Source: Fulvivirga imtechensis AK7 (GTDB lineage Bacteria > Bacteroidota > Bacteroidia > Cytophagales > Cyclobacteriaceae). Taken from it: a stretch of 54,636 bases of DNA. The position numbers and the translations under genes were made by a program. This document shows positions 23,287-52,661 of this stretch, in pieces. Within the stretch, counting starts at the first letter, position 1. Each line of letters begins with the position of its first letter. The stretch spans positions 1-54,636 of the forward strand of contig NZ_AMZN01000092.1 in assembly GCF_000331535.1 (NCBI RefSeq). Direction: 5' to 3'. The notes beneath the pieces are model-generated. The model had not been told where the DNA came from. It was given only the letters and a program-made list of their open reading frames with translations, and searched no databases.

Positions 23287-23328
23287 TTGTTTCTGGTTTC
23301 TGGTTTCTGGTTTCTGGTCTCTGGTCCG
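23287..23328. repeat. Six tandem heptamers (consensus TGGTTTC on +) between the four-helix-bundle gene and the second permease
   Basis: The units are TTGTTTC, TGGTTTC three times, TGGTCTC and TGGTCCG, an uninterrupted 7-bp phase. It fills nearly the whole 49-bp gap between the two genes. On the minus strand it reads ACCAGAA, the same word as the array at 23774-23808 on the plus strand, so the two arrays are inverted relative to each other around the four-helix-bundle gene. Confidence 0.85.
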
Positions 23329-23333
23329 GTTTT

Positions 23334-23696
23334 TTATTGTGTGTTTTCAATAGCACTTATGAATCTGTTCAATTTTCTTCCAAGTAGTTCAATTTCTGAG
23401 GCTAACTCTTCATACTCTTTTTTATCTTTTAAAGAACAGGTCTCATAGAGCACCTCTAAATGATCTCTGGTTTCATCATTAGAGGCTAAACTATATATCA
23501 GGAACCTCAAATACTCATTCTTGTATTTTCTTCTTCCATATCCCTCTACAATATTTGCTCTTACCGATTTACTTGATCTTCTAATCTGACTTCCTGTTTC
23601 GTAAAGCTCAAAACTTGGAAGGGTGAGGGTCATCTTATGTATTTTAACAGATACTTCTCGCGCTAATTGCCAAACTTCGAGTTTTCTATAACTCAT
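23334..23696 (-). CDS. Four-helix bundle protein (S23 / 23S rRNA intervening-sequence protein family)
   Basis: 120 aa from the ATG at 23696 ([20 protein letters not shown]). The family signature is clear: [10 protein letters not shown] at the start, then [20 protein letters not shown] and a long C-terminal helix with RKLNRFI. The fold is a bundle of four antiparallel helices with a basic face that is thought to bind nucleic acid. Relatives are encoded in 23S rRNA intervening sequences and as the Avd proteins of diversity-generating retroelements, but many are solitary. Here it interrupts a metal-transport operon between the two permease genes, bracketed by inverted heptamer arrays, with no link to metals. 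It looks like a passenger gene. Confidence 0.92.
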
Positions 23697-23773
23697 AATC
23701 TTTTTGTTTTTTAATTTGATTCGTTTTTGTTCAATACTTAACACAAAATTCAACCAGGCTACGTGTGCGAAGA

Positions 23774-23808
23774 ACCAGCTACCAGAGACCAGTAGCCAGC
23801 AACCAGTC
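23774..23808. repeat. Five tandem degenerate heptamers (ACCAGNN) at the stop codon of the first permease gene
   Basis: The units are ACCAGCT, ACCAGAG, ACCAGTA, GCCAGCA and ACCAGTC in strict 7-bp phase. The final unit overlaps the TGA stop of the permease gene (23807-23809, minus strand). The 12 bp at 23781-23792 are the exact reverse complement of 23314-23325 in the array on the other side of the four-helix-bundle gene. Confidence 0.85.
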
Positions 23809-25096
23809 ATCCATACGGTATTTCCGACTGATGCGGATCTACTTTTGGGTAATTCAACAATTTTTCAAGTCTGGCTTCCAGCTCCGGTGTTAGTATGTGC
23901 TCAATAGTATCTGCATCGTCATGCACGTGATCAGGGGCTATGCGGAGGTACTGGGTGAGATATAACTCCCATAGCCGGTGAAGCTTCACCGTACGTTGTC
24001 CTTTGCGCTTGCCTGCCCGTGTGAACGACCAATAACCGTTTTCATTCTTTAGATATCCATCACTTCTCAATCTTTTTAGCCCGCTTTTTAGAGCCTGAGG
24101 CTCAAATTTTCTTTTGGAAAGAATTTCTTGTAGAGTGCGCTTTTCATAAAATTTCTTTCCTTCTTCTCCCAAATGATACAGTGCTTTCAGGATATTTTCG
24201 TCATTGATCTGTTTTTTGATCCTGCGTTGTGTCTTTACTCTGTACAGGATGCCTCGTCCCGGTGCCAGAAAAAATGAAATGAAGGCAATGGTTGAAATGA
24301 CCACAACGATCCAAGGCCCGGTTGGCATAGACGGGGCAATGTATGAGATATAGGCGCCTGCCAGTCCGCTTAGCGAACCGAAAATTGCTGCAAGCCATAT
24401 CATAGTAGTGATGTTGTGTGTCCAGAAGCGAGCTGCGGCAGCCGGGGTGATCAGCATAGCAGCCATAAGTACTACACCAACAGCCTGAATGCCCACCACA
24501 ACCGCCAATACCGTAAGCGTGGTAAGTAAAAGTTCGATGGCCCTGACAGGCAGGCCTAGTGTAACTGCAAATTCTTCATCAAAGGCCAGAAGGGTGAGTT
24601 CCTTAAAAAAGAGCCATACACTTACAATAAGGATAACAGCAATTACGGCAAAAACAATAAGGTCAAAACCCACCAGAGAAGCTGCTTTCCCAAAAAGGAA
24701 CTGATCAAGACCGGTTTGAGAGGCATTCCCGGATTTTTGGATTATCGTCAACATAAAAATACCTATTCCAAAAAATACAGACAGTATCAGGCCTATGGCT
24801 GTGTCTTCCTTTAGCTTCGATTTGGCAGTAATAATATCGATCAATACTAACGACAGCCAACCTGTTAAAAATGCTCCGATAATAAGTATTATGGGACTTT
24901 TCTCGCCTGACAAGATGAATGACAGACATACGCCGGGAAGCACAGCATGGGCCACGGCATCACCTACAAGTGCCTTTTTCTTCAGAAAAGTGAACGTACC
25001 TACGATAGCCGAACTGCTGGTGAGCAGGAGGGAGCCTATCACCACGTACCTGATGTTAGGGTCTGAGAAGGAAAAGAATTCAAAGAAACTATCCAT
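23807..25096 (-). CDS. Metal ABC transporter permease fused to a DtxR/MntR-like C-terminal domain
   Basis: 429 aa. Residues 1-285 are an ABC-3 permease with eight or so helices and the signature [18 protein letters not shown] near 43. After a basic linker ([10 protein letters not shown], about 287) comes a cytoplasmic domain with a winged-helix-like part ([14 protein letters not shown]) and a metal-binding/dimerisation-like part ([12 protein letters not shown], then [14 protein letters not shown] and the end [15 protein letters not shown]). This second part is the counterpart of HRLWEVFLVQKL and GYPKYDPHGDPIPD in the operon's own regulator. I infer that the tail senses cytoplasmic metal and gates uptake. 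It is a known arrangement in Bacteroidota as far as I recall. The start lies 1 bp past the ATPase stop. Confidence 0.92.
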
Positions 25097-25097
25097 A

Positions 25098-25934
25098 TCA
25101 ACCGGATTTTGAGTCAGGGGTCTTTTCTCTGTTAGGAAACTGCTGCTGGCGGATCAGGTCTCCAACATCACTCAACAGCGTGAGCTTACCTCCATAGGTC
25201 TCCTGTAGTAGTTCTGTAGTGAATACCTTTTCCACGGGCCCTGAGGCTACCAGTCGCATATTAAGCAGGATCACCCAATCGAAATACTGGGTAACAGATT
25301 GGAGGTCGTGATGTACAACGATCACCGTCTTGCCTTTGGCAGACATTTCGCGAAGCAGGCTAATGATCGCTTTTTCCGTAGCAGCGTCTACACCGGCAAA
25401 CGGCTCGTCCATAAAGTACAGATCCGCCTGCTGAGCCAATGCCCTTGCCAGGAACACGCGCTGCTGCTGGCCACCTGATAACTGTGATATCTGTCTTTTT
25501 TCATATGCTTCCATACCTACCTTCCGCAGACTGTCCATTGCTATATCTTTGTCGGCCTTTCTGGGGCGCCTGAAGAGCCCCAATTTGCCGTACCTACCCA
25601 TGAGTACCACATCGAGTACGGAAGCCGGGAAATCCCAATCTACAGACTCACGTTGTGGTACATAGCTGATCTTCCCACGCGCTTCCCTTAGGCTCTGATC
25701 GAAAAGTTTTACATAGCCGCTGCTATTGGGTGTAAGGCCCATGACCGATTTTATCAGCGTGGATTTGCCGGCACCGTTGGGACCCACTATACCGATCAGC
25801 TTACCATAGGGTAGCGTTAGGTCCACATCCCATAGCACAGGCTTCTTATCATAAGACACAGTCAGGTCATGAACCTCCAGCACAGGGTTCTCAACATGAT
25901 GAACTTGATTGATGATAGTCTTATCGTTGGTCAT
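25098..25934 (-). CDS. Metal ABC transporter ATP-binding protein
   Basis: 278 aa. Walker A GPNGAGKST (51-59), signature LSGGQQQR, Walker B LYFMDEPFAG and the H-loop VVHHDL are all intact. It powers the two permeases of the operon (family of ZnuC, MntA-type ATPases). The next gene begins 1 bp after its stop, so translation is coupled. Upstream, 119 bp separate it from the binding-protein gene, and most of that gap is a heptamer array. The N-terminal 15 residues before the first strand are longer than usual and may not all be translated. Confidence 0.93.
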   Translation of the reverse strand: MTNDKTIINQVHHVENPVLEVHDLTVSYDKKPVLWDVDLTLPYGKLIGIVGPNGAGKSTLIKSVMGLTPNSSGYVKLFDQSLREARGKISYVPQRESVDWDFPASVLDVVLMGRYGKLGLFRRPRKADKDIAMDSLRKVGMEAYEKRQISQLSGGQQQRVFLARALAQQADLYFMDEPFAGVDAATEKAIISLLREMSAKGKTVIVVHHDLQSVTQYFDWVILLNMRLVASGPVEKVFTTELLQETYGGKLTLLSDVGDLIRQQQFPNREKTPDSKSG

Positions 25935-25970
25935 TAGTCAATAGTTAAATCGCTTAAAGTGCTTAAAGTA

Positions 25971-26056
25971 TAAACTGAAAACTGAAAAAACTGTAAACTG
26001 TAAACTGAGAACTGAGAACTGAGAACTGAGAACTGAGAACTGAGAACTGAGAACTA
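25971..26056. repeat. Heptamer array (AGAACTG x6 plus variants) starting at the stop codon of the binding-protein gene
   Basis: From left to right: TAAACTG, AAAACTG, a 9-base unit, TAAACTG twice, AGAACTG six times in a row (26008-26049), and AGAACTA (26050-26056). On the coding (minus) strand the last unit reads TAGTTCT, and its TAG is the stop codon of the metal-binding lipoprotein gene (26054-26056). Identity is highest next to the stop and decays away from it. Confidence 0.9.
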
Positions 26057-26977
26057 TTTCAGCGCCTCAACAATTGTGTTTACGTTTGCTGTTACCATTC
26101 CTATATACGTTCCTTCTTTTGTTCCTTTTTTTCCCATGGCATCGGAGTACAGGTTACCGCCAATCTTTACATCAAAGCCACGCTTACGGGCGCCTTCAAC
26201 CACTGCGTTAATAGCTTTTTCTGATACGGATGTTTCAACAAATACGGCCTTGATCTTACGGTCTACGATAAATGTCACCAGGTGGGAGACATCTCTGAGA
26301 CCATATTCGGATAGAGTAGAGATGCCTTGTAATCCCCGTACTTCAATATCATAAGCATCACCAAAATAGCCAAAAGCATCATGGGCGGTAATCAGTGTCC
26401 GCTGCGCTTTAGGAATGGTGGATATTTCATCTTTTACCCATTTGTGGAGTGAATCCAGTTGCCCTACATAAGCCTGAGTATTTGTCCTGTAAAAGTCTGC
26501 ACGAGCGCTGTCAAGGTCCTGTAAGGCTTCACCCGTTTTACGTACAGCTTCAGTCCAGAGTGCTACATCAAACCATATGTGAGGGTCATAGTTGTTGTTG
26601 AACTCAGGTACCTTCCGCAACTTCTCAGGGTTAATATCTTCCGCCACGGCAATCACCGGCTTTATTCTCGAGAGCTTCTCCAACACTTCACCCATTTTAC
26701 CTTCCAGGTGTAAGCCGTTGTAAAAGATCACGTCAGCCGAAGTCAGCCGCTGCAGATCTCCCTGAGTAGCTTTGTACAGGTGAGGATCTACGCCCGGTCC
26801 CATCAATGAAATAACATCGGCAGAGTCGCCAACAATGTTCATCACTGCATCTTCTATCATTCCTGTGGTAGTAACGATATTCAGCCGACTTTTTTCCAAC
26901 CCCTGCTCTTGGGGCTTACCACATGCAGCGATTAATACCACACACAATATGAGCAGCTTGATTATTCTTCTATCCAT
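26054..26977 (-). CDS. Metal-binding lipoprotein of the ABC transporter (TroA/ZnuA family)
   Basis: 307 aa. Signal peptide with lipobox LIAAC (lipidated Cys19). The cluster A-I fold is evident, and four metal ligands can be placed at H66 (VDPHLY), H133 (DPHIWFD), H199 (ITAHD) and D279 (LYSDAMG). A His-His-His-Asp set resembles TroA rather than the His-His-Glu-Asp of PsaA/MntC. The His-rich loop of zinc-specific ZnuA is absent. I infer Mn, Fe or Zn uptake across the inner membrane, with the metal undecided. The start overlaps the regulator gene by 16 bp, showing that both are on one transcript. Confidence 0.92.
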   Translation of the reverse strand: MDRRIIKLLILCVVLIAACGKPQEQGLEKSRLNIVTTTGMIEDAVMNIVGDSADVISLMGPGVDPHLYKATQGDLQRLTSADVIFYNGLHLEGKMGEVLEKLSRIKPVIAVAEDINPEKLRKVPEFNNNYDPHIWFDVALWTEAVRKTGEALQDLDSARADFYRTNTQAYVGQLDSLHKWVKDEISTIPKAQRTLITAHDAFGYFGDAYDIEVRGLQGISTLSEYGLRDVSHLVTFIVDRKIKAVFVETSVSEKAINAVVEGARKRGFDVKIGGNLYSDAMGKKGTKEGTYIGMVTANVNTIVEALK

Positions 26978-27618
26978 ATATTTTCCGAAACTTCTTTTGA
27001 GATAAAAACTGTCTTTTTGTTGTCGATCAGGATCTCCAGCGAGCCATCAAATTCCAGCCTGTCGATCACCCTGATTTTAGCCCCAATGTAAGCCCCAATT
27101 TTATCGACATATTGGAGGAAAGCAGCACTCGCATCTTTGACTGCCACCACTACTCCGTCATGTCCGATTTTGCAGTCGCTTAGAGCCACCTGGGGCTTGG
27201 CTTTAAACTCTCCTGATTCGTCTGGAATGGGGTCTCCATGGGGGTCGTATTTTGGGTACCCTAGAAACTCGTCCAGACGCCTGATGAGTAGGGGAGATTT
27301 GATGTGCTCCAGTTGCTCTGCTACATCATGAACCTCGTCCCAATTGAACTTCAGTTTCTGGACCAAAAATACCTCCCAAAGCCGGTGCTTTCTGATAACC
27401 TGAAGAGCAGCTTTTTGCCCTTCTTCAGAGACCCTTACCCCCCGGTATTTTTGATAGGTGACAACACCTTTGTTAGACAATTTTTTAATCATATCTGTAA
27501 CAGAAGCCGCCCGGGTATTGAGGGTATCAGCGATAGCATTGGTGGATACAGGATTGCTTGTACCTTCACTTAGATGGTAAATAGTCTTCAAATAATTTTC
27601 CTCTGCAAAACTTAACAT
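26962..27618 (-). CDS. DtxR/MntR-family metal-dependent transcriptional regulator
   Basis: 218 aa from the ATG at 27618 (MLSFAEENYLKTIYHLSEG, the conserved N-terminus); a longer frame begins at 27639 but would overlap the promoter. The order is winged helix (about 1-65, with DTLNTRAASVTDMIKKL as the recognition region), metal-binding and dimerisation domain (HRLWEVFLVQKL, DEVHDVAEQLEHI), then a FeoA/SH3-like C-terminal domain (about 150-215). It should repress the downstream transporter genes when Mn or Fe is plentiful. Two DtxR-type palindromes lie directly upstream, one inside the promoter, so it probably regulates itself. Confidence 0.93.
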   Translation of the reverse strand: MLSFAEENYLKTIYHLSEGTSNPVSTNAIADTLNTRAASVTDMIKKLSNKGVVTYQKYRGVRVSEEGQKAALQVIRKHRLWEVFLVQKLKFNWDEVHDVAEQLEHIKSPLLIRRLDEFLGYPKYDPHGDPIPDESGEFKAKPQVALSDCKIGHDGVVVAVKDASAAFLQYVDKIGAYIGAKIRVIDRLEFDGSLEILIDNKKTVFISKEVSENIWIEE

Positions 27619-27636
27619 AGGGCTTCCAATTTTTAG

Positions 27637-27644
27637 CAAATATA
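27637..27644 (-). promoter_or_regulatory. Putative -7 box (TATATTTG) of the metal-uptake operon
   Basis: On the minus strand TATATTTG matches TAnnTTTG exactly, 18 bp before the ATG at 27618. The adjacent palindrome (27648-27665) lies immediately upstream between the -7 and -33 positions, so a bound repressor would block the polymerase. Confidence 0.6.
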
Positions 27645-27647
27645 GTA

Positions 27648-27665
27648 TTTTAGATTTATCTAAAA
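27648..27665. promoter_or_regulatory. DtxR/MntR-type operator 1 (perfect 8-2-8 palindrome)
   Basis: TTTTAGATTTATCTAAAA: arms TTTTAGAT and ATCTAAAA around TT. The TTAG...CTAA core fits the shape of operators bound by DtxR-family regulators. It lies 30 bp upstream of the regulator start, touching the -7 box. Confidence 0.7.
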
Positions 27666-27747
27666 AATTTTTTACATTATAATTAAAAATTACAAAGAGC
27701 AGCGTTTTTCATGCGATTACGGAAGAAATGTTACTCATTCTTGTGTT

Positions 27748-27765
27748 TTTTAGGCTTGTCTAAAA
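27748..27765. promoter_or_regulatory. DtxR/MntR-type operator 2 (one mismatch), 100 bp from operator 1
   Basis: TTTTAGGCTTGTCTAAAA: same size and spacer as operator 1, with a single mismatch in the arms. It starts exactly 100 bp further upstream of the same start codon. No divergent gene starts nearby (the gene to the right ends at 27913), so both sites serve the leftward operon. Confidence 0.6.
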
Positions 27766-27912
27766 CACATGTAAGGACTGGTTACTGGTAAAAATAACCA
27801 TGAAAATACGAGCCAATGCCTGAAATAACCTGAATTGAGGGTGAAATGATAATAAAATAGAGTTTAATTGATAGTTGATATTTAATATGTTAAACAATTG
27901 ATTTGCAGTATT

Positions 27913-29034
27913 CTATATCAGTAAATTATTGACTATTTCAATGAGTTTTTTCTCCTCTGATCTCCATAAAATTTCATCTTTTGGTATAGTGGTGTAGAAT
28001 TTTCGTTTTTTCATTTTGTTGAGTAGTTGCCCCGGGTTGATGGTGTGGATGTTGATCGGAATGCAGGCTTCATATTTTTCTGCCAGTTCTACCCAGGGTT
28101 CATGGTCCTGAAGAAGCATGGGCAGTCCATTGCCCAGGTACTCGAAAAGTTTAGTGGGCATGGTGTTCATGGTACTCTTATTGGTGGGGTAATAAACCAC
28201 TCCGAAATCAGCCTTTTGAATGGCGGCCAAAACCTCCTGATGGGATACCAGCTCCGAGCCTCCAAAGAGGGTTATAAAGTCCGAATTTTTTATTGTTTCC
28301 TTCAGCTTGATCAACGTGCTTTTCTGGGCACAATAGCCGATGATATTTAACCTGATTTCGGGATTTATTTCATGCAGTTTTTTTGTCAGGGCAATGCACT
28401 CGAAAACCCCTGTGCTTTCACCTATAGTACCGGAAAAAAGGAGGGTGATTTGTTCACTGTTTTTTATCTGTTTTTGAACGTCCGGAATCGTTACGGAGGG
28501 TAGGTATTTATTTTCAATCACTGTGCATTTTCCACGGGCAAAAGTAAATTCATTTTGATACTGTTTTTCTGCCAGAAAGTAATGATCAACAAACAGCCGG
28601 CTGAGGTATTCTTTGCCCCGGATGTAGGCCGCTATGAATGGTTTGATCAGCAGCGGGAAGGTGTTGGTGTAAAGTATATTCCGGTAGTAATTTTCCTGGA
28701 TGTCATACGCCACTTTGCAGCCAAATAATATTCTGTATAGAAATGTAACTATCAGTAATTCATGCGTATTGATGATGATCAGTTCAGGTCTTAGTTGATG
28801 GTATTTTTTTAAGCATTGGAATGGCGCAGCAAGTCTGGAAATATTAAGTCTTTTGAAATTAAAGAGCGGATGAAAAGTGATGTTTACCGTTTGCGGAATA
28901 TTTTTTACACAAAACCCTATGATATTTATTTCATATTTACTTGTTTGGCCCAACGAAAGACCAAATTTTTCATACATCCTGGTGTCATCAACAGGCTTGA
29001 GCACAGAGGCGATGACGAGTTTGCGTTTCTTCAT
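27913..29034 (-). CDS. Glycosyltransferase family 4-like protein
   Basis: 373 aa from the ATG at 29034 (MKKRKLVIASVLKPVDD). The open frame extends nine codons further, but the basic-hydrophobic start is the natural one. It has a GT-B layout: N-terminal Rossmann-like half, then FSGTIGESTGVFE at the start of the nucleotide-sugar-binding half and PTKLFEYLGNGLPML, the EX7E-type region of GT4 enzymes. It should transfer a sugar from a nucleotide donor to a glycan or lipid at the cytoplasmic face. No neighbouring polysaccharide genes are present, so the acceptor is unknown. It is divergent from dapD with 36 bp between starts. Confidence 0.85.
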   Translation of the reverse strand: MKKRKLVIASVLKPVDDTRMYEKFGLSLGQTSKYEINIIGFCVKNIPQTVNITFHPLFNFKRLNISRLAAPFQCLKKYHQLRPELIIINTHELLIVTFLYRILFGCKVAYDIQENYYRNILYTNTFPLLIKPFIAAYIRGKEYLSRLFVDHYFLAEKQYQNEFTFARGKCTVIENKYLPSVTIPDVQKQIKNSEQITLLFSGTIGESTGVFECIALTKKLHEINPEIRLNIIGYCAQKSTLIKLKETIKNSDFITLFGGSELVSHQEVLAAIQKADFGVVYYPTNKSTMNTMPTKLFEYLGNGLPMLLQDHEPWVELAEKYEACIPINIHTINPGQLLNKMKKRKFYTTIPKDEILWRSEEKKLIEIVNNLLI

Positions 29035-29070
29035 ATACAGTAATAATAAAAGATTAATCAATAATAGCTG

Positions 29071-29883
29071 ATGGATTTAAGAGAAATTGTAGAAAATGCC
29101 TGGGATAACCGAGCCCTGCTCAAGGAAAAAGATGTTCAAATAGCGGTAAAAACAATAGTCGGAGATCTGGACCAGGGCGTAAGGCGCGTGGCAGAACCGA
29201 ACGGTGAAAATTGGTTAGTCAATGAGTGGGTGAAGAAGGCAGTGATACTTTATTTCCCATTGATGAAAATGCAGACCATCGAGGTGGGCCCGTTTGAGTT
29301 TCATGATAAGATCAAGCTCAAAAATAACTATGAAAAACTGGGTGTAAGGGTTGTGCCCCACGCCATTGCCCGTTATGGTTCTTTTGTCAACAGAGGAGTG
29401 GTAATGATGCCTTCATATGTGAATATCGGAGCTTATGTTGATGAGGGCACCATGGTGGATACCTGGGCAACGGTGGGTAGCTGTGCTCAGATAGGAAAGA
29501 ACGTTCACCTCAGTGGAGGCGTTGGTATAGGAGGGGTGCTGGAGCCTGTGCAGGCAGCCCCGGTTATTATTGAAGACAATGCCTTCATCGGCTCAAGGTG
29601 TATCATCGTGGAGGGAGTACGTGTGGGCAAAGAAGCAGTGCTGGGAGCCAATGTTGTGCTTACTGCCAGCTCGAAGATCATTGACGTAACTGGTGATAAA
29701 CCAGTAGAAACAAAAGGCTATGTACCTGAACGATCTGTTGTTATTCCGGGTTCATATACTAAAAAATTCCCTGCAGGAGAATACCAGGTTCCCTGCGCTT
29801 TGATCATTGGAAAGCGTAAGGAAAGTACAGATAAAAAGACTTCACTTAACCAGGCCCTGCGCGAAAATGATGTAGCCGTCTGA
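29071..29883 (+). CDS. dapD: 2,3,4,5-tetrahydropyridine-2,6-dicarboxylate N-succinyltransferase
   Basis: 270 aa, close to the 274 aa of the E. coli enzyme. The start MDLREIVENAWDNR is followed by conserved RVAEP, then a left-handed beta helix of hexapeptide repeats (for example MMPSYVNIGAYVDEGTMVDT and GSCAQIGKNVHLSGGVGIGG), and a C-terminal loop with VPERSVVIPGS. It transfers succinyl from succinyl-CoA to tetrahydrodipicolinate in the lysine/diaminopimelate pathway. The short divergent intergenic space implies closely packed promoters shared with the glycosyltransferase gene. Confidence 0.97.
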   Translation: MDLREIVENAWDNRALLKEKDVQIAVKTIVGDLDQGVRRVAEPNGENWLVNEWVKKAVILYFPLMKMQTIEVGPFEFHDKIKLKNNYEKLGVRVVPHAIARYGSFVNRGVVMMPSYVNIGAYVDEGTMVDTWATVGSCAQIGKNVHLSGGVGIGGVLEPVQAAPVIIEDNAFIGSRCIIVEGVRVGKEAVLGANVVLTASSKIIDVTGDKPVETKGYVPERSVVIPGSYTKKFPAGEYQVPCALIIGKRKESTDKKTSLNQALRENDVAV

Positions 29884-29986
29884 TTTTGGCATTTACTTTG
29901 TGGTGGCTTGGTGTATATAGTAATATAGCTTAGTGTAGCGGAAATTAAAGAAAAGATTGTCGGGCTATTTGAAATTATTTATACCT

Positions 29987-30802
29987 ATGAAAAAGCTTTT
30001 GCCTCTCTTTATTATTTTGATTCTACTCAGTAGCTTCACCTCAGGTGACAGTGACGTTTATCCTGTGGTGCCGCACGATAGCTTTGTGCGGGGAGAAAGA
30101 CTTGAGTATAAAGTAAGCTTTGGCATATTTGCCATCGGCAGCGCTGAGATGATCATTAGAGACAATTTTTACAGGATCAACCATCGTGATTGCTACAAGA
30201 TTGATGTATATGGCAAAACCACCGGTATGGTGGATTGGATTGCAAAAGTGGATGATCATTGGGGAGCATATGTTGATTCGGCTGCGTTAGTACCACATAT
30301 TTCTTACCGGAATATAAAAGAAGGTAATTACCGAAAGAATGAGATCATCCGGTTTGATCACAGAACCAATCTTATAGAAGCTAAGGTGATAGACAAGAAG
30401 ACCGGTGATTTTAAAGAGCCAAATTATTATGCTGCACCTGAAAACATCCGGGATATGCTGGCCGGTTACCTGTATCTACGAACCATTGACTTTTCCAAAA
30501 TGAAAAAAGGAGAGGTGTTCACGGTTAAGGGTTTCTTTGAAGACACCTTTTATGAACTGGATGTGAAATATAGAGGCAAAGACAAGATCAAAACAAAAGC
30601 AGGTAAGTTTCATGCCATCAAGCTTGCCCCCATTATGCCCAACAATGAACTTTTTGACGGAGAAGATTCAATAATAGCCTGGATATCCGATGATAAGAAC
30701 AAAATCCCTTTGAAGGTAGAGGCAAAAATGTTCATCGGCAGCACTTCAGTTGAGCTTTCAGGTTATCACAACGTAAAGAATGAAGTGAGTATCATTAAAT
30801 AG
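29987..30802 (+). CDS. Exported DUF3108-family protein
   Basis: 271 aa from the ATG at 29987 (MKKLLPLFIILILLSSFTSG, a clear signal peptide); an upstream TTG in the same frame gives an unlikely extension. The mature part begins with the family motif FVRGERLEYKVSFGIFAIGSAEM and is rich in beta strands, fitting a lipid-binding beta-barrel-like fold. It has a periplasmic location. DUF3108 proteins have no settled function, and nothing near it suggests one. The gene ends 3 bp before a 133-bp element with terminal inverted repeats, which probably forms its mRNA tail. Confidence 0.85.
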   Translation: MKKLLPLFIILILLSSFTSGDSDVYPVVPHDSFVRGERLEYKVSFGIFAIGSAEMIIRDNFYRINHRDCYKIDVYGKTTGMVDWIAKVDDHWGAYVDSAALVPHISYRNIKEGNYRKNEIIRFDHRTNLIEAKVIDKKTGDFKEPNYYAAPENIRDMLAGYLYLRTIDFSKMKKGEVFTVKGFFEDTFYELDVKYRGKDKIKTKAGKFHAIKLAPIMPNNELFDGEDSIIAWISDDKNKIPLKVEAKMFIGSTSVELSGYHNVKNEVSIIK

Positions 30803-30804
30803 TG

Positions 30805-30937
30805 TTTGTAAGAAAACGCCAATGTCTGCGTTATGCTCGTGCCAAAAATGCTCACGTACCCCGGTACGCTCCGCTTTTTGGGACTTCACACTCTGGTCTC
30901 AATACTATTATCTCCATATTACAATATTTCTTACAAA
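30805..30937. repeat. 133-bp element with 11-bp terminal inverted repeats and a central hairpin (MITE/REP-like)
   Basis: TTTGTAAGAAA (30805-30815) and TTTCTTACAAA (30927-30937) are perfect inverted repeats. Inside are AACGC/GCGTT (30815-30832) and a central imperfect stem AAAAATGC...GTACC|CC|GGTAC...GCTTTTT (30844-30879). No open frame and no obvious target duplication is seen. The element begins 3 bp after the DUF3108 stop codon. Confidence 0.6.
30896..30923. repeat. Heptamer array inside the 133-bp element
   Basis: GTCTCAA, TACTATT, ATCTCCA, TATTACA: four units in 7-bp phase. They nearly copy the array at 31057-31084 in the same orientation. Confidence 0.55.
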
Positions 30938-30993
30938 ACGCTGCAGTTGTAGATTCACTTTCATATCTTGCACGGACATACTACAACCGAATC

Positions 30994-31028
30994 TTGAGTC
31001 TTTAGTATTTAGTGGTGAGTCTTGAGTG
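30994..31028. repeat. Five degenerate heptamers (TTNAGTN)
   Basis: TTGAGTC, TTTAGTA, TTTAGTG, GTGAGTC, TTGAGTG in strict 7-bp phase. It is inverted relative to the array at 31057-31084 (whose units read TTGAGAC, ATTAGTA, TTGAGAT on the other strand), so the pair could fold together. Confidence 0.7.
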
Positions 31029-31056
31029 AAAATTGACAAAGGAAATGGGTGCTCCA

Positions 31057-31084
31057 GTCTCAATACTAATATCTCAATACTGAA
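31057..31084. repeat. Four heptamers just before the start of the hydrolase gene
   Basis: GTCTCAA, TACTAAT, ATCTCAA, TACTGAA, ending 3 bp before the ATG at 31088. With 30896-30923 it forms an imperfect direct repeat of about 27 bp, 161 bp apart. Confidence 0.65.
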
Positions 31085-31087
31085 AAC

Positions 31088-31825
31088 ATGAAATACTCAC
31101 TATTGATCTTTTTGATCTGTGTTGGCTTCATCCCCTCAGGCAAGGAAACTATCCGTTTTAAATCTCAGGATGGCCTCGAAATAGTTGGGGATCTTTACAT
31201 GAAACACCCCACAACAGCGCCTTTTATAGTATTGTTCCATCAGGCAAATTGGAGTAGGGGAGAATACCTCGAGATTGCTCCACGGCTAAATAGCATGGGT
31301 TTTAATTGTCTCGCAGTAGACTTGCGATCCGGTGGCGCAATAAATGACGTACAGAACATCACGAGGCAGAATGCACTAAAGGCAATGAAGGAGACTCAAT
31401 ATGTGGATGCCTTGCCAGACATGACCGCTGCAATTAACTATGCCGATCAAAATTTTGCGGAGGGAAAACTTATTGTATGGGGGAGTTCATATTCTGCTGC
31501 CCTGGCGCTGAAGCTGACCGGTGACATGCCAGACAAGGTGGATGCGGTACTGGCCTTTTCACCGGGAGAATACTTTGCCTCACAAGGCAGGTCCAGAGAT
31601 TACATCACTTCGAGTGCTATAAACGTATCACAGCCCGCTTTTATTACTTCATCCAGAGATGAAAAGAATAACTGGTGGGGTATCTATGTGACTATTCCAT
31701 CCGACAAGAAGCAGTACTACCTGCCTGAAACTGCCGGAAACCATGGCTCAAGGGCGCTGTGGTCAAGGTACCCGGACTCAAAGGGTTACTGGGAAGCAGT
31801 CACACAATTTCTCAGTTCATTCTGA
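31088..31825 (+). CDS. Exported alpha/beta hydrolase (dienelactone-hydrolase-like)
   Basis: 245 aa. The start MKYSLLIFLICVGFIPSG is a short signal peptide. The fold appears as IVLFHQANWSRGEY (oxyanion region), CLAVDLRSGG, nucleophile elbow VWGSSYSAALAL (G-S-S-Y-S) and a late TAGNHGSRALW supplying His. The last Gly of GxSxG is Ser, a mild deviation. It is probably a periplasmic esterase or lipase-like enzyme of unknown substrate. It starts immediately behind a heptamer array and is followed, after 8 bp, by another one. Confidence 0.82.
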   Translation: MKYSLLIFLICVGFIPSGKETIRFKSQDGLEIVGDLYMKHPTTAPFIVLFHQANWSRGEYLEIAPRLNSMGFNCLAVDLRSGGAINDVQNITRQNALKAMKETQYVDALPDMTAAINYADQNFAEGKLIVWGSSYSAALALKLTGDMPDKVDAVLAFSPGEYFASQGRSRDYITSSAINVSQPAFITSSRDEKNNWWGIYVTIPSDKKQYYLPETAGNHGSRALWSRYPDSKGYWEAVTQFLSSF

Positions 31826-31833
31826 ATAAAAAA

Positions 31834-31876
31834 CAAACTGAGAACGGAAAAACTGAGAACGGAGAACGGAGAACTG
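31834..31876. repeat. Heptamer array (AGAACGG/AGAACTG) between hydrolase and TPR genes
   Basis: Units: CAAACTG, AGAACGG, an 8-base AAAAACTG, AGAACGG twice, AGAACTG. It starts 8 bp after the hydrolase stop and ends 15 bp before the -7 box of the TPR gene. Together with the left arm at 32554-32588, which is in the opposite orientation, it brackets the TPR gene. Confidence 0.8.
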
Positions 31877-31891
31877 TTTCCAAAAAAGTTC

Positions 31892-32547: not shown

Positions 32548-32553
32548 TTGCTT

Positions 32554-32648
32554 CAGTTCTCGGTTCACAGTTCTTAGTTCACCGTTCATGGAGCTACTGT
32601 AAACTAAGAACTAAGAACTGAGAACTGAGAACTGAGAACTGAAAACTA
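32554..32648. repeat. Inverted pair of heptamer arrays forming a long hairpin between convergent genes
   Basis: Left arm: CAGTTCT, CGGTTCA, CAGTTCT, TAGTTCA, CCGTTCA (32554-32588). Right arm: TAAACTA, AGAACTA, AGAACTG four times, AAAACTA (32600-32648). In the best register 29 of 35 positions pair, around an 11-base loop. The last unit AAAACTA contains the TAG stop of the dehydrogenase gene (32646-32648, minus strand). It could act as a two-way terminator. Confidence 0.85.
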
Positions 32649-33536
32649 CTTCTTAAATCGGTCTGCTACTATCAGGTCTTTTGTTCCATGCCCCCAGCTA
32701 TAGAAGCCGCTACCTGATTTTACCCCTTTATGTCCGGCTTCTACCATATTCACCAACAGAGGGCATGGTGCATATTTGGGATTGCCAAATCCATCATAGA
32801 GTACATTCAAAATAGAAAGGCACACATCCAGGCCAATAAAGTCTGCCAACTGCAGAGGTCCCATAGGGTGGGCCATGCCCAACTTCATTACCGTATCAAT
32901 TTCTTCCACTCCGGCCACTCCTTCATATAAAGAATAGATGGCTTCGTTGATCATAGGCATCAATATTCTGTTAGCCACAAAGCCCGGATAGTCATTTACC
33001 TCAACAGGCACCTTACCAAGATTTTTTGAAAGGTCCATTATTTGAGCTGTTACCTCATCAGTAGTATTGTAGCCCCTGATCACCTCAACCAGCTTCATTA
33101 CGGGCACAGGATTCATAAAATGCATACCTATCACCTTTTCTGAACGTTGCGTTACAGCAGCTATTTTGGTGATCGATATAGAGGAGGTATTGGTAGCCAA
33201 AATAGTCTTGGCATCGCACCACTTATCAAGGTCCTGGAAGATCTTCAATTTGAGGTCTATATTCTCTGTGGCAGCCTCTACAACCAGGTCAGCATTTTTC
33301 ACACCTTCTTCGGTGCTTGTGAAAGTGGTGATATTATTAAGGGTATTTTTTTTTCCTTCTTCGGTGATTATCTCTTTATTGATCTGCCGGTCAAGGTTTT
33401 TTTCAATAGTACCCAGTGCTTTTTTTAAAGCATCTTCTGAAATGTCGATAAGAGCAACCTGGTATCCGGTCTGGGCGAATACATGCGCAATGCCATTTCC
33501 CATGGTGCCAGATCCTATTACAGCTATATTTTTCAT
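32646..33536 (-). CDS. 3-hydroxyacyl-CoA (3-hydroxybutyryl-CoA) dehydrogenase
   Basis: 296 aa, the size of stand-alone Hbd/PaaH enzymes. It has NAD-binding GSGTMGNGIAHVFAQTGY at the N-terminus, VVEAATENIDLK, TNTSSISITKIA, the HFMNPVPVMKLVEVI signature with the catalytic His and Asn nearby, and the C-terminal helical domain with YPGFVANRILMPMINEA. It oxidises 3-hydroxyacyl-CoA in beta-oxidation or butanoate metabolism in the cytoplasm. It has its own -7 box about 40 bp upstream. It converges with the TPR gene across the heptamer hairpin. Confidence 0.95.
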   Translation of the reverse strand: MKNIAVIGSGTMGNGIAHVFAQTGYQVALIDISEDALKKALGTIEKNLDRQINKEIITEEGKKNTLNNITTFTSTEEGVKNADLVVEAATENIDLKLKIFQDLDKWCDAKTILATNTSSISITKIAAVTQRSEKVIGMHFMNPVPVMKLVEVIRGYNTTDEVTAQIMDLSKNLGKVPVEVNDYPGFVANRILMPMINEAIYSLYEGVAGVEEIDTVMKLGMAHPMGPLQLADFIGLDVCLSILNVLYDGFGNPKYAPCPLLVNMVEAGHKGVKSGSGFYSWGHGTKDLIVADRFKK

Positions 33537-38357: not shown

Positions 38358-40283
38358 ATGGCAGTAGAGAATAATTTTGAATATACAGAAGATAGTATTA
38401 AATCCCTTGACTGGAAGGAACATATCAGGCTCAGGCCCGGTATGTATATTGGTAAGCTGGGGGATGGTTCTGCACAGGATGATGGTATTTATGTCTTGGT
38501 AAAAGAGGTCATCGACAACTGTATTGATGAACACATGATGGGTTATGGTAAAACCATTGATGTGAAGATAACTGACCATAGGGTAGAGGTGAGGGATTAT
38601 GGCCGTGGTATCCCTTTAGGGAAGGTAGTAGACTGTGTTTCCAAGATCAATACCGGTGGTAAATATGATTCCGGGGCTTTTCAAAAGTCCGTAGGTCTGA
38701 ATGGGGTGGGAACAAAAGCGGTGAACGCTTTGTCCAATTACTTCAAAGTGCAATCATTTCGTGAGGGTCAGACTAAAGTAGCTGAGTTTAAACAAGGTAA
38801 CATTGTTAATGATAACCAGGTCATCAGTTCCAGCGGTCGAAATGGTACACTTATCGTGTTTGAGCCCGATGAGACCGTTTTTAAAAACTTTCATTTTATC
38901 CCCGAATACCTCAATGACCTGATCTGGAACTATGTATTTCTGAATGCAGGTCTTACCATTAATTTTAATGGACAGCGATTCCACTCTGAGAATGGTTTGA
39001 AAGACCTGCTGGAGAGAAAAACTGATGTGGAAAGCCTGCGGTACCCGATCATTCACCTGAAGGGTAACGACATTGAGGTGGCGTTGACACACTGCAATCA
39101 ATACGGAGAGGAATATTACAGCTTCGTTAACGGTCAGTATACCACGCAGGGCGGTACCCATCTGGCTGCCTTTAGGGAGGCTGTAGTAAGAACAGTGCGG
39201 GATTTTTATAAAAAAGATTTTGATGCCACAGATGTACGTGCTTCCATAGTAGGTGCTATAGCCGTAAGGGTACAGGAGCCTGTTTTTGAATCTCAAACCA
39301 AGACAAAGCTCGGCTCTCAGAACGTTGGACCTGATGGCCCAACCATGAGAACATTTATAAACGATTTCCTGAAAACAGAACTTGACAACTACCTGCACAG
39401 AAACTCTGAAGTGGCGGACGCACTCCTTAAAAGAATACTTCAATCGGAGCGGGAGAGAAAAGAAATAGCCGGTATAAAAAAATTAGCCAACGACAGGGCT
39501 AAAAAAGCTAACCTGCATAATAAGAAACTCCGGGACTGCAGACTCCACTATAACGATAAGAAGGGAGAGCGAACGGATGAGACAATGATCTTCATCACTG
39601 AGGGGGATTCTGCCAGCGGGTCCATCACTAAATCGAGAGATGTACAGACACAAGCGGTGTTTAGCTTGCGCGGTAAGCCACTGAACTGCTTCAACCTCAC
39701 CAAGAAAGTGGTGTATGAAAATGAAGAATTCAACCTGCTACAGCATGCGCTTAATATTGAAGACGGCATTGAGGGCCTCAGATATAGAAAGATAATCATT
39801 GCTACCGATGCCGATGTGGATGGTATGCATATCAGACTGCTTTTGCTGACATTTTTTCTGCAGTTTTTCCCTGAGCTGATCAAGCAGGGGCATGTATATA
39901 TTCTCGATACACCTTTGTTCAGGGTGCGGAATAAGAAAGAAACTATTTATTGCTACTCTGAAGAAGAAAAAAGAGCAGCTATCGAAAAGTTAGGTAATAA
40001 GCCTGAGATTACCAGATTTAAAGGTTTGGGAGAGATATCCCCTGAAGAATTTGGGAAATTTATAGGGGATGATATCAGACTTGATCCTATTATTTTAAAT
40101 AAAGAAACCAAGATCAATAGCCTCCTTACCTTCTTTATGGGGAAAAACAGCCCTGAAAGACAAGAATTTATTGTTGAAAATCTGCGGGTGGAAAAAGACC
40201 TGGTAGAGGAGCTTCCAATAAAAGAATTGCCTGATGAAGAAGTGACTGAGAAAGAAGAGGTGCCGGGAGAGTTGTCTGTATGA
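38358..40283 (+). CDS. parE: DNA topoisomerase IV subunit B (GyrB/ParE family)
   Basis: 641 aa. GHKL ATPase domain (LKWKEH-like start with [26 protein letters not shown] and [10 protein letters not shown]), transducer domain to about 390, then TOPRIM with [10 protein letters not shown] and the metal-binding [10 protein letters not shown]. The length is short of GyrB's usual insertions and the C-terminal tail is acidic. With ParC it decatenates daughter chromosomes. In many Bacteroidota parE and parC are neighbours, as here, but two extra genes are inserted between them. The ParE assignment over GyrB rests on this context. Confidence 0.93.
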
Positions 40284-40356
40284 TTGTATTTTTAATACAA
40301 AAATTAAATTATTGTAAATTTAATACAAAATTAATAATATTGTATTTTTAATGCAA
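40284..40356. promoter_or_regulatory. Three 17-bp palindromes at exact 28-bp intervals before the SatD-family gene
   Basis: TTGTATTTTTAATACAA (40284-40300, perfect 7-3-7 palindrome), TTGTAAATTTAATACAA (40312-40328) and TTGTATTTTTAATGCAA (40340-40356). The starts are exactly 28 bp apart, beginning right after the parE stop codon and ending 2 bp before the ATG at 40359. It looks like a cooperative operator for the SatD-family gene. Confidence 0.75.
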
Positions 40357-40358
40357 AA

Positions 40359-40982
40359 ATGAAGCACTGCATCATCATGGCGGATATTATAGGCAGTTCC
40401 CAACAACAGGGTAAGCTGCTGATGACCCATTTTAAGTCTGTCGTCAACGGTGTAAATACAGCGCTAAAAGATAAAATTAGATCCCCTTTGACTATTACCC
40501 TGGGGGATGAATTCCAGGGAGTGGTAAAGGACCTGGATGCAGCCGTAGAAGTGATCTTTTGGATTGACGAATTAATGTTGAGTGCTGATCCTGCTTATAA
40601 ATTAAGATTTGTTGTCAATTATGGCGCTATCGATACGGCCATTAATGAAGAGGTTGCTTATGAAATGCTGGGAGAGGGGCTTACCCGTGCGCGTCACCTT
40701 CTGGGAGCAATGAAGTCAGAAGATACCGAGATCCTTATCAATGGCATTGACGATAAGGATGATATTTTAAATATGGCTTTCAAGCTCTACAGATCATTTT
40801 ACAACGACTGGCTTGAAAAAGACAGACCGGTAGCTTCCACATTTTTGAAAATAGAAGACTATAAAGAAGTAGCCAGGATTTACAAAAAGGATATATCAAC
40901 CATGTGGCGCAGGGAAAAGAGTTTGAAGATAGACGAGTTCAGAACGTCAAGAGATCTGATCAGGAGGCTGGCGCATGAGTAA
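40359..40982 (+). CDS. SatD-family protein with C-terminal helix-turn-helix-like segment
   Basis: 207 aa. The family signature is the N-terminal MADIIGSSQQ, TLGDEFQGVV and RFVVNYGAIDTAIN followed by GEGLTRARHLL. SatD proteins are widespread but of unknown activity; the fold resembles nucleotidyl-cyclase-like domains to some annotators. The end (about 165-200: YKEVARIYKKDISTMWRREK) reads like a helix-turn-helix. With the three palindromes immediately upstream, I infer that it may bind its own promoter. It overlaps the next gene by 8 bp, and both lie between parE and parC. Confidence 0.85.
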   Translation: MKHCIIMADIIGSSQQQGKLLMTHFKSVVNGVNTALKDKIRSPLTITLGDEFQGVVKDLDAAVEVIFWIDELMLSADPAYKLRFVVNYGAIDTAINEEVAYEMLGEGLTRARHLLGAMKSEDTEILINGIDDKDDILNMAFKLYRSFYNDWLEKDRPVASTFLKIEDYKEVARIYKKDISTMWRREKSLKIDEFRTSRDLIRRLAHE

Positions 40983-47943: not shown

Positions 47944-47968
47944 ACAAGGCTACAGCATTTAATATTAA

Positions 47969-47999: not shown

Positions 48000-48007
48000 C
48001 ATTCCGT

Positions 48008-48015
48008 TATTTTTG
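48008..48015 (+). promoter_or_regulatory. Putative -7 box (TATTTTTG) of the TPR lipoprotein-thrS unit
   Basis: Exact TAnnTTTG match 20 bp before the ATG at 48036, directly after the inverted repeat. Confidence 0.5.
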
Positions 48016-48035
48016 TGAGTAACAAGTTATAGCAC

Positions 48036-49142: not shown

Positions 49143-49151
49143 ATTTTTAAA

Positions 49152-51086: not shown

Positions 51087-51124
51087 AGATATATTGCACT
51101 TATCTTTAATTTGTTATGTACATT

Positions 51125-51155
51125 TTGAAAAATCGAAATTATATAACGATATTTG
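51125..51155 (+). promoter_or_regulatory. Putative promoter of the infC-rpmI-rplT unit
   Basis: A TTG (51125-51127) stands 20 bp ahead of GATATTTG (51148-51155), which is one base from TAnnTTTG. The infC start follows about 38 bp later. Confidence 0.45.
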
Positions 51156-51180
51156 CAACCTGTTTTTTCGCAACTAAACC

Positions 51181-51195
51181 AAGGAGGTTAACATT
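51181..51195 (+). promoter_or_regulatory. Strong Shine-Dalgarno and ATT start codon of infC
   Basis: AAGGAGGT (51181-51188) with a short spacer before ATT (51193-51195). This is a near-perfect anti-16S match in a genome where other genes mostly lack one. ATT, rather than ATG, as the start is the classical infC control: IF3 discriminates against it, so it limits its own synthesis. Confidence 0.85.
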
Positions 51196-51753
51196 AGTAA
51201 ACAAAAATTTCAGAAAAGGGGCTTTCGAGGGAGAGTTGAGGAGCCCTATAAAGTGAACGAGAAAATCAACGCTCGTAAGGTACGGGTTGTTGGCGAAAAC
51301 GTTAAAGTGGATGTATATCCCATCGAACAAGCTTTAAAGATGGCCAGAGAGCAGAATTTAGATCTTGTAGAGATCTCGCCTACGGCTGATCCTCCGGTTT
51401 GTAAGATCATTGATTACTCGAAGTTTAAGTACGAGCAGAAGAAAAAACAGAAAGAAATTAAGGCCAAAGCTCAAAAAACGGTCATTAAAGAGATTCGGTT
51501 TGGCCCCAACACAGAGGAGCATGACTTTAACTTTAAGCTAAACCATGCACAAAAGTTCCTGAAAGAAGGAGCAAAAGTGAAGGCTTATGTTCATTTCGTG
51601 GGAAGGACCATTGTATTTAAAGAAAGAGGAGAGATCCTTTTGTTACGCTTTGCCCAGGCTTTGGAAGATTATGGAAAAGTAGAGCAGATGCCGAAGCTGG
51701 AAGGAAAAAGGATGACGATGTTTTTAACGCCTAAGCCAAACTCAAAAAAGTAG
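51193..51753 (+). CDS. infC: Translation initiation factor IF-3
   Basis: 186 aa from the ATT at 51193; a GTG at 51253 in the same frame would delete the conserved leader, and the strong Shine-Dalgarno is placed for ATT. N-domain with [17 protein letters not shown], linker rich in Lys (about 85-105), and C-domain with the IF3 motif [18 protein letters not shown] and [15 protein letters not shown]. The protein prevents premature 50S joining and proofreads the start codon on 30S. It begins a classic infC-rpmI-rplT unit. Confidence 0.97.
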
Positions 51754-51781
51754 AATAATACAGATCAATAAATAATATAAA

Positions 51782-51976
51782 ATGCCAAAAGTAAAAACTA
51801 AATCAGGAGCGAAGAAGAGATTCAAGCTGACGGGAACTGGCAAGATAAAAAGAAAGCACGCTTTCAAAAGCCACATCCTGACGAAGAAAGAGACCAAGCA
51901 AAAGCGTAATCTCACAAAAATGACGTTGGTTCATAAATCAGATGAAGCTAACGTTAAGGCTATGCTTAATATCTAG
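51782..51976 (+). CDS. rpmI: 50S ribosomal protein L35
   Basis: 64 aa, the standard length, very basic: [20 protein letters not shown], then [15 protein letters not shown] and a short C-terminal helix ending VKAMLNI. It starts 28 bp after infC. It binds 23S rRNA in the large subunit. Confidence 0.97.
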
Positions 51977-52014
51977 TTTGAGTAATTAACACTCTACACA
52001 GTAGCCAAATATTA

Positions 52015-52030
52015 TTGAGCGTTAGCTCAA
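52015..52030. repeat. Small perfect hairpin in the rpmI-rplT gap
   Basis: TTGAGC-GTTA-GCTCAA: 6-bp stem with a 4-base loop, 38 bp after rpmI. It may be part of an L20-responsive leader or a pausing site; no T-run follows. Confidence 0.5.
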
Positions 52031-52068
52031 GGTTTTAAATTTTAACCAGGTTAATAGGCTTTAAAGTA

Positions 52069-52086
52069 TTCCGATAATTATCGGAA
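52069..52086. repeat. Perfect 18-bp palindrome upstream of rplT
   Basis: TTCCGATAATTATCGGAA, self-complementary over all 18 bases, 28 bp before the rplT ATG. As RNA it could pair with a second transcript or fold into a short stem; as DNA it could bind a protein. Confidence 0.55.
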
Positions 52087-52114
52087 GCGCCATTGACCAA
52101 AAACAATTAAAGAA

Positions 52115-52459
52115 ATGCCAAGATCAGTAAATCATGTTGCGTCAAAAGCACGCAGAAAGAGAATACTAAAAGCTGCCAAAGGATACTTCGGCAGAAGAAA
52201 GAATGTATGGACAGTAGCTAAAAACGCTGTCGAAAAAGGTTGGACTTATGCTTATCGTGATAGAAAGGCCAAAAAGAGAGACTTTAGAAAATTGTGGATC
52301 CAAAGGATCAATGCCGGAGCACGACTTCACGGCATGTCTTATTCACAGTTTATGGGTGGTGTTAAGAAAGCCAATATCGATCTGAACAGAAAGGTATTAG
52401 CGGACCTGGCTATGAATCACCCTGAAGCTTTCGAAGCTATCGTTAAAAAAGTAAAATAA
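52115..52459 (+). CDS. rplT: 50S ribosomal protein L20
   Basis: 114 aa. The N-terminus is highly conserved ([20 protein letters not shown], then [10 protein letters not shown]), followed by the globular C-domain with [20 protein letters not shown]. It binds 23S rRNA early in 50S assembly and in other bacteria represses its own operon. The gap from rpmI is 138 bp, much wider than in E. coli, so it cannot be coupled to rpmI translation as there. A terminator follows 27 bp after the stop. Confidence 0.97.
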
Positions 52460-52486
52460 GTTTTAAACCTACGATCTGTATTAGAG

Positions 52487-52514
52487 AGCCCGGGCAGTAT
52501 GTCCGGGCTTTTGT
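52487..52514 (+). terminator. Rho-independent terminator after rplT
   Basis: AGCCCGG (52487-52493) and CCGGGCT (52503-52509) form a GC-rich 7-bp stem with a 9-base loop, followed by TTTTG and more Ts. It closes the ribosomal-protein unit. Confidence 0.85.
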
Positions 52515-52626
52515 GCTTTTAAATTAAATTGTCTACCAGAGGCCATCACCAATACCATTGGGTCAGGCAGAAAAGTTGGGGATTATAGTTTTGCTTCCCT
52601 GTTTGTAGTTTGAAAGTTGGTCGATT

Positions 52627-52661
52627 ACTTCCGACTTCGGTCTTCGGACTTCCGTCTTTAC
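52627..52661. repeat. Degenerate heptamer array (ACTTCSG)
   Basis: ACTTCCG, ACTTCGG, TCTTCGG, ACTTCCG, TCTTTAC in 7-bp phase. Looser 7-bp units may continue to the stop codon of the minus-strand gene at 52697 (GCTTACA, GCTTAGA, GCCAGAG, GCTTCTA at 52669-52696). Confidence 0.6.

Follow-up and report, generated by a model that had tools for sequence, protein, structure and literature searches.

What are the phased heptamer arrays that separate genes in a 54,636-nucleotide stretch of Fulvivirga imtechensis AK7 (contig NZ_AMZN01000092.1, hereafter the window), and what sets their period? A sequence-only reading of this DNA listed at least nine such arrays and suggested that a period of 7 arises from slippage or from the copying of a 7-base template, rather than from selection. 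Our analysis leads to another answer. Very probably, the arrays are the terminal inverted repeats, or the solo and hairpin remnants, of small elements that sit at gene junctions, carry a gene for an IVP (S23 / four-helix-bundle protein, PF05635) and resemble intervening sequences (IVS) while being non-ribosomal.

Identity at lag 7 reaches 0.89 in the array beginning at position 23287, 0.68 at 23774, 0.87 at 25971, 0.71 at 30994, 0.69 at 31834, 0.70 at 32554 and 0.71 at 52627, and the same seven arrays give 0.08-0.40 at the control lags 4-6 and 8-10. These seven stand clearly above chance. The two other stretches that had been counted, 30896-30923 (7/21 matches at lag 7) and 31057-31084 (10/21), are unconvincing by themselves. 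Calling arrays at a minimum of 20/28 matches at a given lag, we found seven segments at lag 7 in the whole window, none at each of lags 4-6 and 8-13, three at lag 14 and two at lag 15. Twelve stretches of the same genome (G000; 240 kb, N excluded), which were not selected for arrays, the positions of the doubled AACTGAG word being known before the selection, hold 12 arrays at lag 7, 0-2 at each of lags 4-6 and 8-13, and 9 at lag 14. The earlier expectation that lag 7 would dominate an autocorrelation scan with control lags is borne out in the window and in the sampled stretches of the genome, and a chance origin of the arrays is ruled out by these scans. Three of the 12 arrays sit at contig starts (L199, L211). 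Several of the contigs C139, C53, C95, C6, C49 and C87 of this genome, taken together with L199 and L211, begin within heptamer arrays, which suggests that the arrays may break assembly and be undercounted.

The association with gene ends also stood. Across the window and 20 further stretches, a simple call of open reading frames (ORFs) places 42 of the 45 lag-7 segments outside ORFs, even though ORFs make up ~81% of the DNA; one of the remaining three is a run of N (L209), and N was excluded from the sister-genome, solo-array and 158-element counts given below. The word does change from array to array, as had been stated, but it is not free in each: doubled AACTGAG (AACTGAGAACTGAG) is found at 128 places across the 6.7-Mb genome and its reversed control at none, and the doubled word has 0 occurrences in all 14 other genomes of the genus. 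Some arrays consist partly of identical tandem copies. Positions 20000-54636 of the window have no Rfam match, and a known RNA family was rejected on this ground as the identity of the arrays.

The arrays at 23287-23328 and 23774-23808 enclose an IVP gene that is absent from the sequence-only reading and lies inside a zinc-type transporter operon, with the following layout:

22421-23284, minus strand: ABC-3 zinc-type permease 2, the host gene downstream of the element (Pfam, frame 22421-23356); its start was set at the ATG beside the arm.
23287-23328, no strand assigned: 3' arm of the IVP element, NNACCAG in the IVP sense, 5-6 units, adjoining the start of permease 2.
23334-23696, minus strand: IVP gene (S23 / four-helix-bundle protein, PF05635), the core of the element, 120 aa from ATG.
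23774-23808, no strand assigned: 5' arm of the IVP element, CTGGTNN in the IVP sense, 5 units, adjoining the stop codon of permease 1.
23807-25096, minus strand: ABC-3 permease 1 fused to a DtxR-type C-terminal metal-binding domain (PF02742), upstream of the element (Pfam).

PF05635 is matched at 1.4e-27 by the longer frame 23334-23810 and is the sole Pfam family in this protein, which also matches the PDB structure 2gsc at 9.1e-8. The arms are inverted copies of one word (CTGGTNN/NNACCAG) around the gene, and their predicted duplex reaches -49.8 kcal/mol. The element lies between two ABC permease genes, not within an rRNA gene.

Phased arms are carried by most of the IVP genes that we examined, usually on both sides, inverted and with a word specific to the element. 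The genome of the window has seven PF05635 matches, six over the Pfam cut-off. Lag-7 arrays of at least 15/21 matches stand on both sides of five of these six genes, and the sixth (L036) has 17/21 and 14/21; the weak seventh match (L037) has no lag-7 arrays on its flanks. Five of the elements each use a different word (AGTTTNN, CAGTTCT, GGTAATC, GGTTAAT and CTGGTNN), and the predicted arm duplexes of the six range from about -30 to -55 kcal/mol. Further IVP loci were taken from genomes of the same genus, GTDB species genomes, viral contigs (23), plasmids (10/32 records) and Bacteroidota bearing the TAACTGA repeat; the phages collection gave no IVP match. The GTDB loci are the 80 top-scoring among at least 583 retrieved with a single IVP subgroup, and many come from metagenome-assembled genomes; going by their titles, they belong to Bacteroidota, Ignavibacteria, Acidobacteria, Fibrobacter, Gemmatimonadetes, Verrucomicrobia, Thiobacillus, Clostridia and others. 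After 11 loci were dropped (short flank, N, duplicates), 158 elements were kept and their 180-nt flanks were scored with a threshold of at least 14/21 matches. Lag-7 arrays were found on both flanks of 98 elements and on at least one flank of 132. The corresponding counts are 12 and 25 at lag 8, 2 and 14 at lag 6, and 1 and 8 at lag 12, while lags 4, 5, 9, 10, 11 and 13 give no element with both flanks; lag 14, the double of 7, gives 78 and 124. In control flanks 700 nt off (145 elements, at least 15/21), lag 7 appears in both flanks of none and in one flank of 10. The most frequent arm length is 5 units (46 of the 139 arms scoring at least 10; median 4.9). The IVP gene of an Anabaena sp. 90 plasmid (L218) lies between cas6 and cas4, and that of a Nostoc edaphicum plasmid (L212) between nrdB and nrdA; similar insertions may already have been encountered in a cas-gene survey in which 23S_rRNA_IVP is named (PMC3936711).

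The positions of the elements bear on a reading in which the arrays are post-transcriptional regulatory sites: placed close to starts and stops, they would tune translation by binding S1, Csp or Csr-type proteins, the regulatory view taken for TAACTGA by MacGregor 2015 (PMC4679880). Arrays do abut start and stop codons, and 90 of the 103 IVP elements between co-directional genes are inserted in sense (simple ORF call). The other 13 are antisense, and regulation leaves unexplained the inverted arms around IVP genes, the word proper to each genome and the array-free junctions of sister species described below. As an origin of the arrays we regard it as quite unlikely; a regulatory role could be a later use of them.

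The two arms of one element match each other. When the 5' arm was compared with the reverse complement of the 3' arm of the same element, the median score was 14.5, against 8.0 with the arms of other elements. Scores of at least 12 were reached by 86/126 own pairs and by 182/5040 cross pairs, and in 62/126 elements the own pair outscored all 40 sampled other arms. The columns that are conserved are also shared: conservation in the 5' and the 3' arm correlates with a mean rho of 0.50 (55 elements) against 0.11 across elements, and 5.8/7 consensus letters agree between the arms of one element against 3.7/7 between elements. This comparison drew on 81 elements with both arms scoring at least 10, 55 of them of sufficient length, and includes the near-identical pairs L039/L065 and L160/L161. 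Since conserved columns coincide between arms, we read the arm as a phased core plus looser positions, for example AGTNNNN or CTGGTNN, a pattern that uniform slippage does not predict.

The period, which is 7 or in some lineages 8, follows the IVP lineage. We placed 158 IVP proteins, a set that overlaps with and differs from the 158 elements of the lag count, on a tree of few columns and many open forks, with 104 proteins labelled as period 7, 11 as period 8 and 43 unlabelled. The label changes 5 times on this tree, against 10.7 times when shuffled, and 0/500 shuffles were as low. Six period-8 proteins (L089, L103, L112, L127, L132 and L140, with L112 and L140 near copies) are mutually nearest, and two more form a pair. 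Arms phased by 8 nt stand on both sides in the lineages of these six and also in L347 and L351; an IVP clade with period 8 on both sides argues that the period follows the protein. The IVP structures 2gsc and 2rld in the PDB have five chains each, and that of X. campestris is described as a homopentameric toroid (PMC4990558).

These results can be set against pure slippage, in which polymerase geometry would favour 7-nt units and neutral arrays would survive in intergenic DNA, the long simple sequence repeat (LSSR) idea that PMC4679880 attributes to Mrazek 2007. Slippage fits arrays that are mostly intergenic, in some cases hold identical tandem copies, and at one orthologous site (below) differ strongly in length. 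It does not fit lag 7 being far more frequent beside IVP genes than 700 nt off, arms that are inverted and word-matched around those genes, a period of 8 that tracks IVP lineages, or the near absence of arrays from two IVP-free sister genomes. If the polymerase set the period, the period would not follow a protein gene. The proposal that slippage or template copying sets the period is unsupported; we rejected a period set by the polymerase on the lag spectrum of the IVP flanks and the period-8 clade. As a full account of the arrays, slippage appears highly improbable; it probably accounts for changes of copy number within an array and does not set the period.

Among the sister genomes sampled, arrays are nearly absent from the two that have no IVP. 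The two IVP-free genomes have no lag-7 segment in 400 kb (G005) and one, AT-rich, in 386 kb (G006), while IVP-bearing G003 (2 IVPs), G011 (4) and G014 (2) have 8, 7 and 1, respectively, per 400 kb each, and G000 (6 IVPs over the cut-off) has 12 in 240 kb. Together these counts amount to 1 array in 786 kb of the former and 28 in 1.44 Mb of the four latter; other lags in the sister samples mostly give 0-3 segments. Solo arrays score best against the IVP arms of their own genome in 7/8 cases in G003 (mean 31.6, next 18.1) and in 21/37 cases in G000 (mean 25.7, next 11.9), where the set includes stretches chosen for AACTGAG arrays.

Orthologous sites that are empty, decayed or differently occupied also exist. 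The permease junction of the zinc operon has its gene in 12/15 genomes of the genus. Compared by eye, six of these 12 carry an apparent orthologous IVP with CTGG/CCAG arms, G002 has a different IVP family with AGCT-type arms, G014 a decayed remnant and G008 a short scar, and no IVP is present in G012 (interval of ~240 nt) or in G010 and G007, where the genes abut. The 5' arm of this element has, by eye, ~4 heptamers in G011 and G013 and more than 30 in G004, so that the variation in array length foreseen between sister strains is seen here between species. At the stop codon of znuA (25971-26056), among 11 genomes of the genus, the array is present in G000, other words occupy the site in G001, and nine have no array. 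The IVP of the L031 site is common to G009 and broken in G002, and solo arrays of other words stand there in G013 and G001.

The remaining arrays of the window are listed here:

25971-26056, no strand assigned: ORF-less AACTGAG array (CAGTTCT in the operon sense), starting at the TAG stop of znuA.
30994-31084, no strand assigned: AGT-word array at 30994-31028; it may be one half of an inverted pair, lacking an ORF, whose other half is the weak ACT-word stretch 31057-31084.
31834-31876, no strand assigned: AACTGAG/AACGGAG array between co-directional genes.
32554-32648, no strand assigned: two AACTG-word arms in inverted orientation with no ORF, lying between convergent genes, with a hairpin energy of -49.2 kcal/mol.
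52627-52661, no strand assigned: ACTTCSG array downstream of rplT, with a word like the arms of IVP element L055 of the sister genome G014.

The hairpin (folded over 32548-32652) has a z of -9.3. Folding of 25940-26060 on the minus strand gave a z of only -2.0 and that of 30994-31084 only -1.0, the pairing of the latter being weakly supported, and no significant structure was found in 30984-31090, 31826-31890 or 52600-52700. Beside the AGT-word array, positions 30807-30938 have inverted ends (GTTTGTAAGAAA and TTTCTTACAAA) around a GC-richer core, a small piece resembling a miniature inverted-repeat transposable element or a repetitive extragenic palindrome. A weak lag-7 segment between infC and rplT (51767-51802, 19/28) is likely due to chance, a 28-bp tandem repeat of 2.8 copies at 40283-40360 has a period unrelated to 7, and a DtxR/FeoA-type regulator lies at 26962-27639.

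Similar heptamers have been described in other bacteria. In C. burnetii, the S23 ORF of the rRNA IVS is preceded by two or three GACAGAT heptamers, depending on the strain, and RNase III cuts at the start of the first heptamer (Warrier 2016, PMC4990558). These heptamers are the sole published link between heptamers and IVP that we found in the open-access literature, in which no paper was found to connect IVP/S23 genes with heptamer repeats as a class, subscription journals and preprints being outside this scope. Both have an S23/IVP ORF between complementary ends able to form a stem, as PMC4990558 describes for the 23S rRNA IVS; unlike the latter, the elements described here stand at protein-gene junctions and use many words, and solo arrays and hairpins occur alongside them.

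The TAACTGA repeats of some Bacteroidetes are heptamers near starts and stops, for which PMC4679880 proposes translational control in a main text that does not contain the terms 23S, S23, four helix or intervening. Triplets of TAACTGA occur in 18/395 Bacteroidota genomes; G000, whose main word is AACTGAG, has none. We found two TAACTGA arrays that adjoin IVP genes: in G347, an array at 240039-240101 beside an IVP gene at 240141-240446, and in G163, by coordinates, one at 27717-27758 beside an IVP gene at 27318-27629. By eye, L327, L328 and L330 are ORF-less inverted TAACTGA pairs that resemble 32554-32648 of the window; L327 and L330 apparently share one gene context in two genomes, with a TAACTGA-type hairpin of differing length.

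Among cyanobacteria, 5/8 distinct plasmid IVP loci have lag-7 arrays of at least 14/21 matches on both sides. Their arm words (AGTRGGG/CCCYACT, AGGGAAC and GTGTAGG) appear similar to those of the short tandemly repeated repetitive (STRR) sequences. The STRRs, brought in by the sequence-only reading, are an apt comparison. STRR heptamers were reportedly presented by Mazel in 1990 as degenerate 7-bp tandem repeats in intergenic DNA, and to our knowledge they were described without an associated gene. Like STRRs and heptamer LSSRs, the arrays here are dispersed intergenic tandems of degenerate 7-bp units. The GGGAATC and GGGGA(C/T)T heptamers of Xanthomonas and Nostoc are likewise dispersed, and in Xanthomonas some are paired and inverted, but they are interpreted as G-quadruplex elements (PMC4692102). 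In the P6b stem of the Nostoc trnL intron, complementary heptamers (TDNGATT, NNTGAGT) also pair, although within an intron and with no ORF, and their evolutionary origin is given as unknown in PMC4476775.

Two further systems can be compared. Avd, essential to retrohoming in diversity-generating retroelements, is reported to be structurally similar to PF05635 (PMC10053308), which makes a role of IVP with a reverse transcriptase conceivable by analogy. The 20 window proteins that were scanned, of which 10 lie in 20957-30802, include no reverse transcriptase; template and variable repeats and the neighbours of other elements were not searched. REPIN/RAYT systems consist of palindromic dispersed repeats matched to a resident gene. 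We know of no report of IVP as a transposase. The same 20 proteins include no Y1 (RAYT) transposase, and no genome-wide search for one was made.

Several results weigh against the interpretation of the arrays as parts of IVP elements. At the threshold used, 13 of the 158 elements have no arm at lag 7 or 8, and the 80 GTDB loci are not a random sample. Arms in direct orientation score at least 12 in 17/126 elements (e.g. L067, L069 and L131), and the sharing of conserved columns could also be mimicked if the arms were copied from one another in concert. Three of the 11 period-8 IVPs have a period-7 nearest neighbour, and period 8 arose several times. The comparison of six genomes is small and the genomes are related; G014 has just one array with its two IVPs, G003 also gives 5 segments at lag 6 and 6 at lag 8, G011 gives 4 at lag 12, and some lag-7 segments of G003 and of the seven of G011 are AT-rich. 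The solo arrays of G011 score best against the fetched IVP arms of that genome in only 2/7 cases (12.3, others up to 13.0). A target-site duplication was sought at the compared insertions and none was established, in agreement with these insertions being old. The binding of the arms by IVP and the mobility of the element are what we infer from the pattern. Also, an IVP over the cut-off is present in 13/18 TAACTGA genomes and in 14/18 neighbours without TAACTGA, and three genomes with TAACTGA triplets have no IVP. Lastly, mispairs between arms comprise 119 G-U and 151 A-C, with no excess of G-U.

The TAACTGA counts led us to reject a simple link between this repeat and any IVP in the genome; as there is no enrichment, only adjacency counts. 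They also agree with IVP being a passenger, that is, with an independent hairpin or repeat element whose existing arrays IVP genes insert into or bind, and so does the fact that solo arrays outnumber IVP genes in G000. On the other hand, words and period follow the individual IVP, and the abutting junctions carry neither arrays nor IVP, which makes a passenger role rather improbable.

The mispairs bear on an element acting at the RNA level, whose arms would be a double-stranded RNA stem for RNase III with a phase set by RNA structure. The predicted duplexes of the six elements of this genome, the hairpin at 32548-32652 and the RNase III cut in the C. burnetii IVS (PMC4990558) agree with it. 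There is, however, no wobble signature in the arms, and without G-U excess no selection on an RNA stem is seen, even if out-of-register alignment could blur the signal. In addition, antisense insertions exist and a stem alone needs no 7-nt phase. We regard this explanation as unlikely, though less so than the other alternatives.

In the IVP-element interpretation that we favour, the element would have the layout 5'-[heptamer arm]-ATG-IVP gene-stop-[inverted heptamer arm]-3' and would be a non-ribosomal relative of the 23S rRNA IVS. The IVP pentamer may bind the arm with one unit per protomer; the period would then be the protomer spacing and the core the recognition site. The element would enter gene junctions, where little harm is done, and may be mobile itself or spread in trans with other enzymes. 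PF05635 is the only Pfam family in the window IVP, which shows no nuclease domain, so that the element is likely to depend on help in trans. Arms may lengthen and shorten by slippage, and decay of the ORF would leave solo arrays and hairpins. At the RNA level, RNase III may cleave the paired arms, as it is reported to do in rRNA IVS.

A broader proposal, about which we are close to evenly divided while leaning slightly to doubt, has two parts taken together. The IVP homopentamer would be a ring that reads phased nucleic acid, with one heptad or octad per protomer, and a superfamily of IVP elements, present across phyla in protein operons, plasmids and rRNA genes, would be the source of most of the heptamer repeats known from bacteria, among them STRRs, TAACTGA and heptamer LSSRs, and perhaps GGGAATC and the trnL P6b stems. 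TRAP, with a phase of 5 nt, offers a comparison for a ring of this type.

Slippage, regulation and G-quadruplexes have each been invoked to account for the heptamer repeats of cyanobacteria, sulfur bacteria, xanthomonads and Bacteroidetes (PMC4679880, PMC4692102), and for S23/IVP proteins PMC4990558 states no known function. With the IVP-element interpretation, the repeats gain an origin and the S23/IVP protein gains a concrete, testable ligand, with the predictions that an IVP binds the word flanking itself and that the period follows the protein. The same interpretation may explain arrays at contig ends and IVP genes inside cas and other operons. With it, long-puzzling repeats of bacteria would share a common origin, and many bacterial heptamer repeats may find their explanation.

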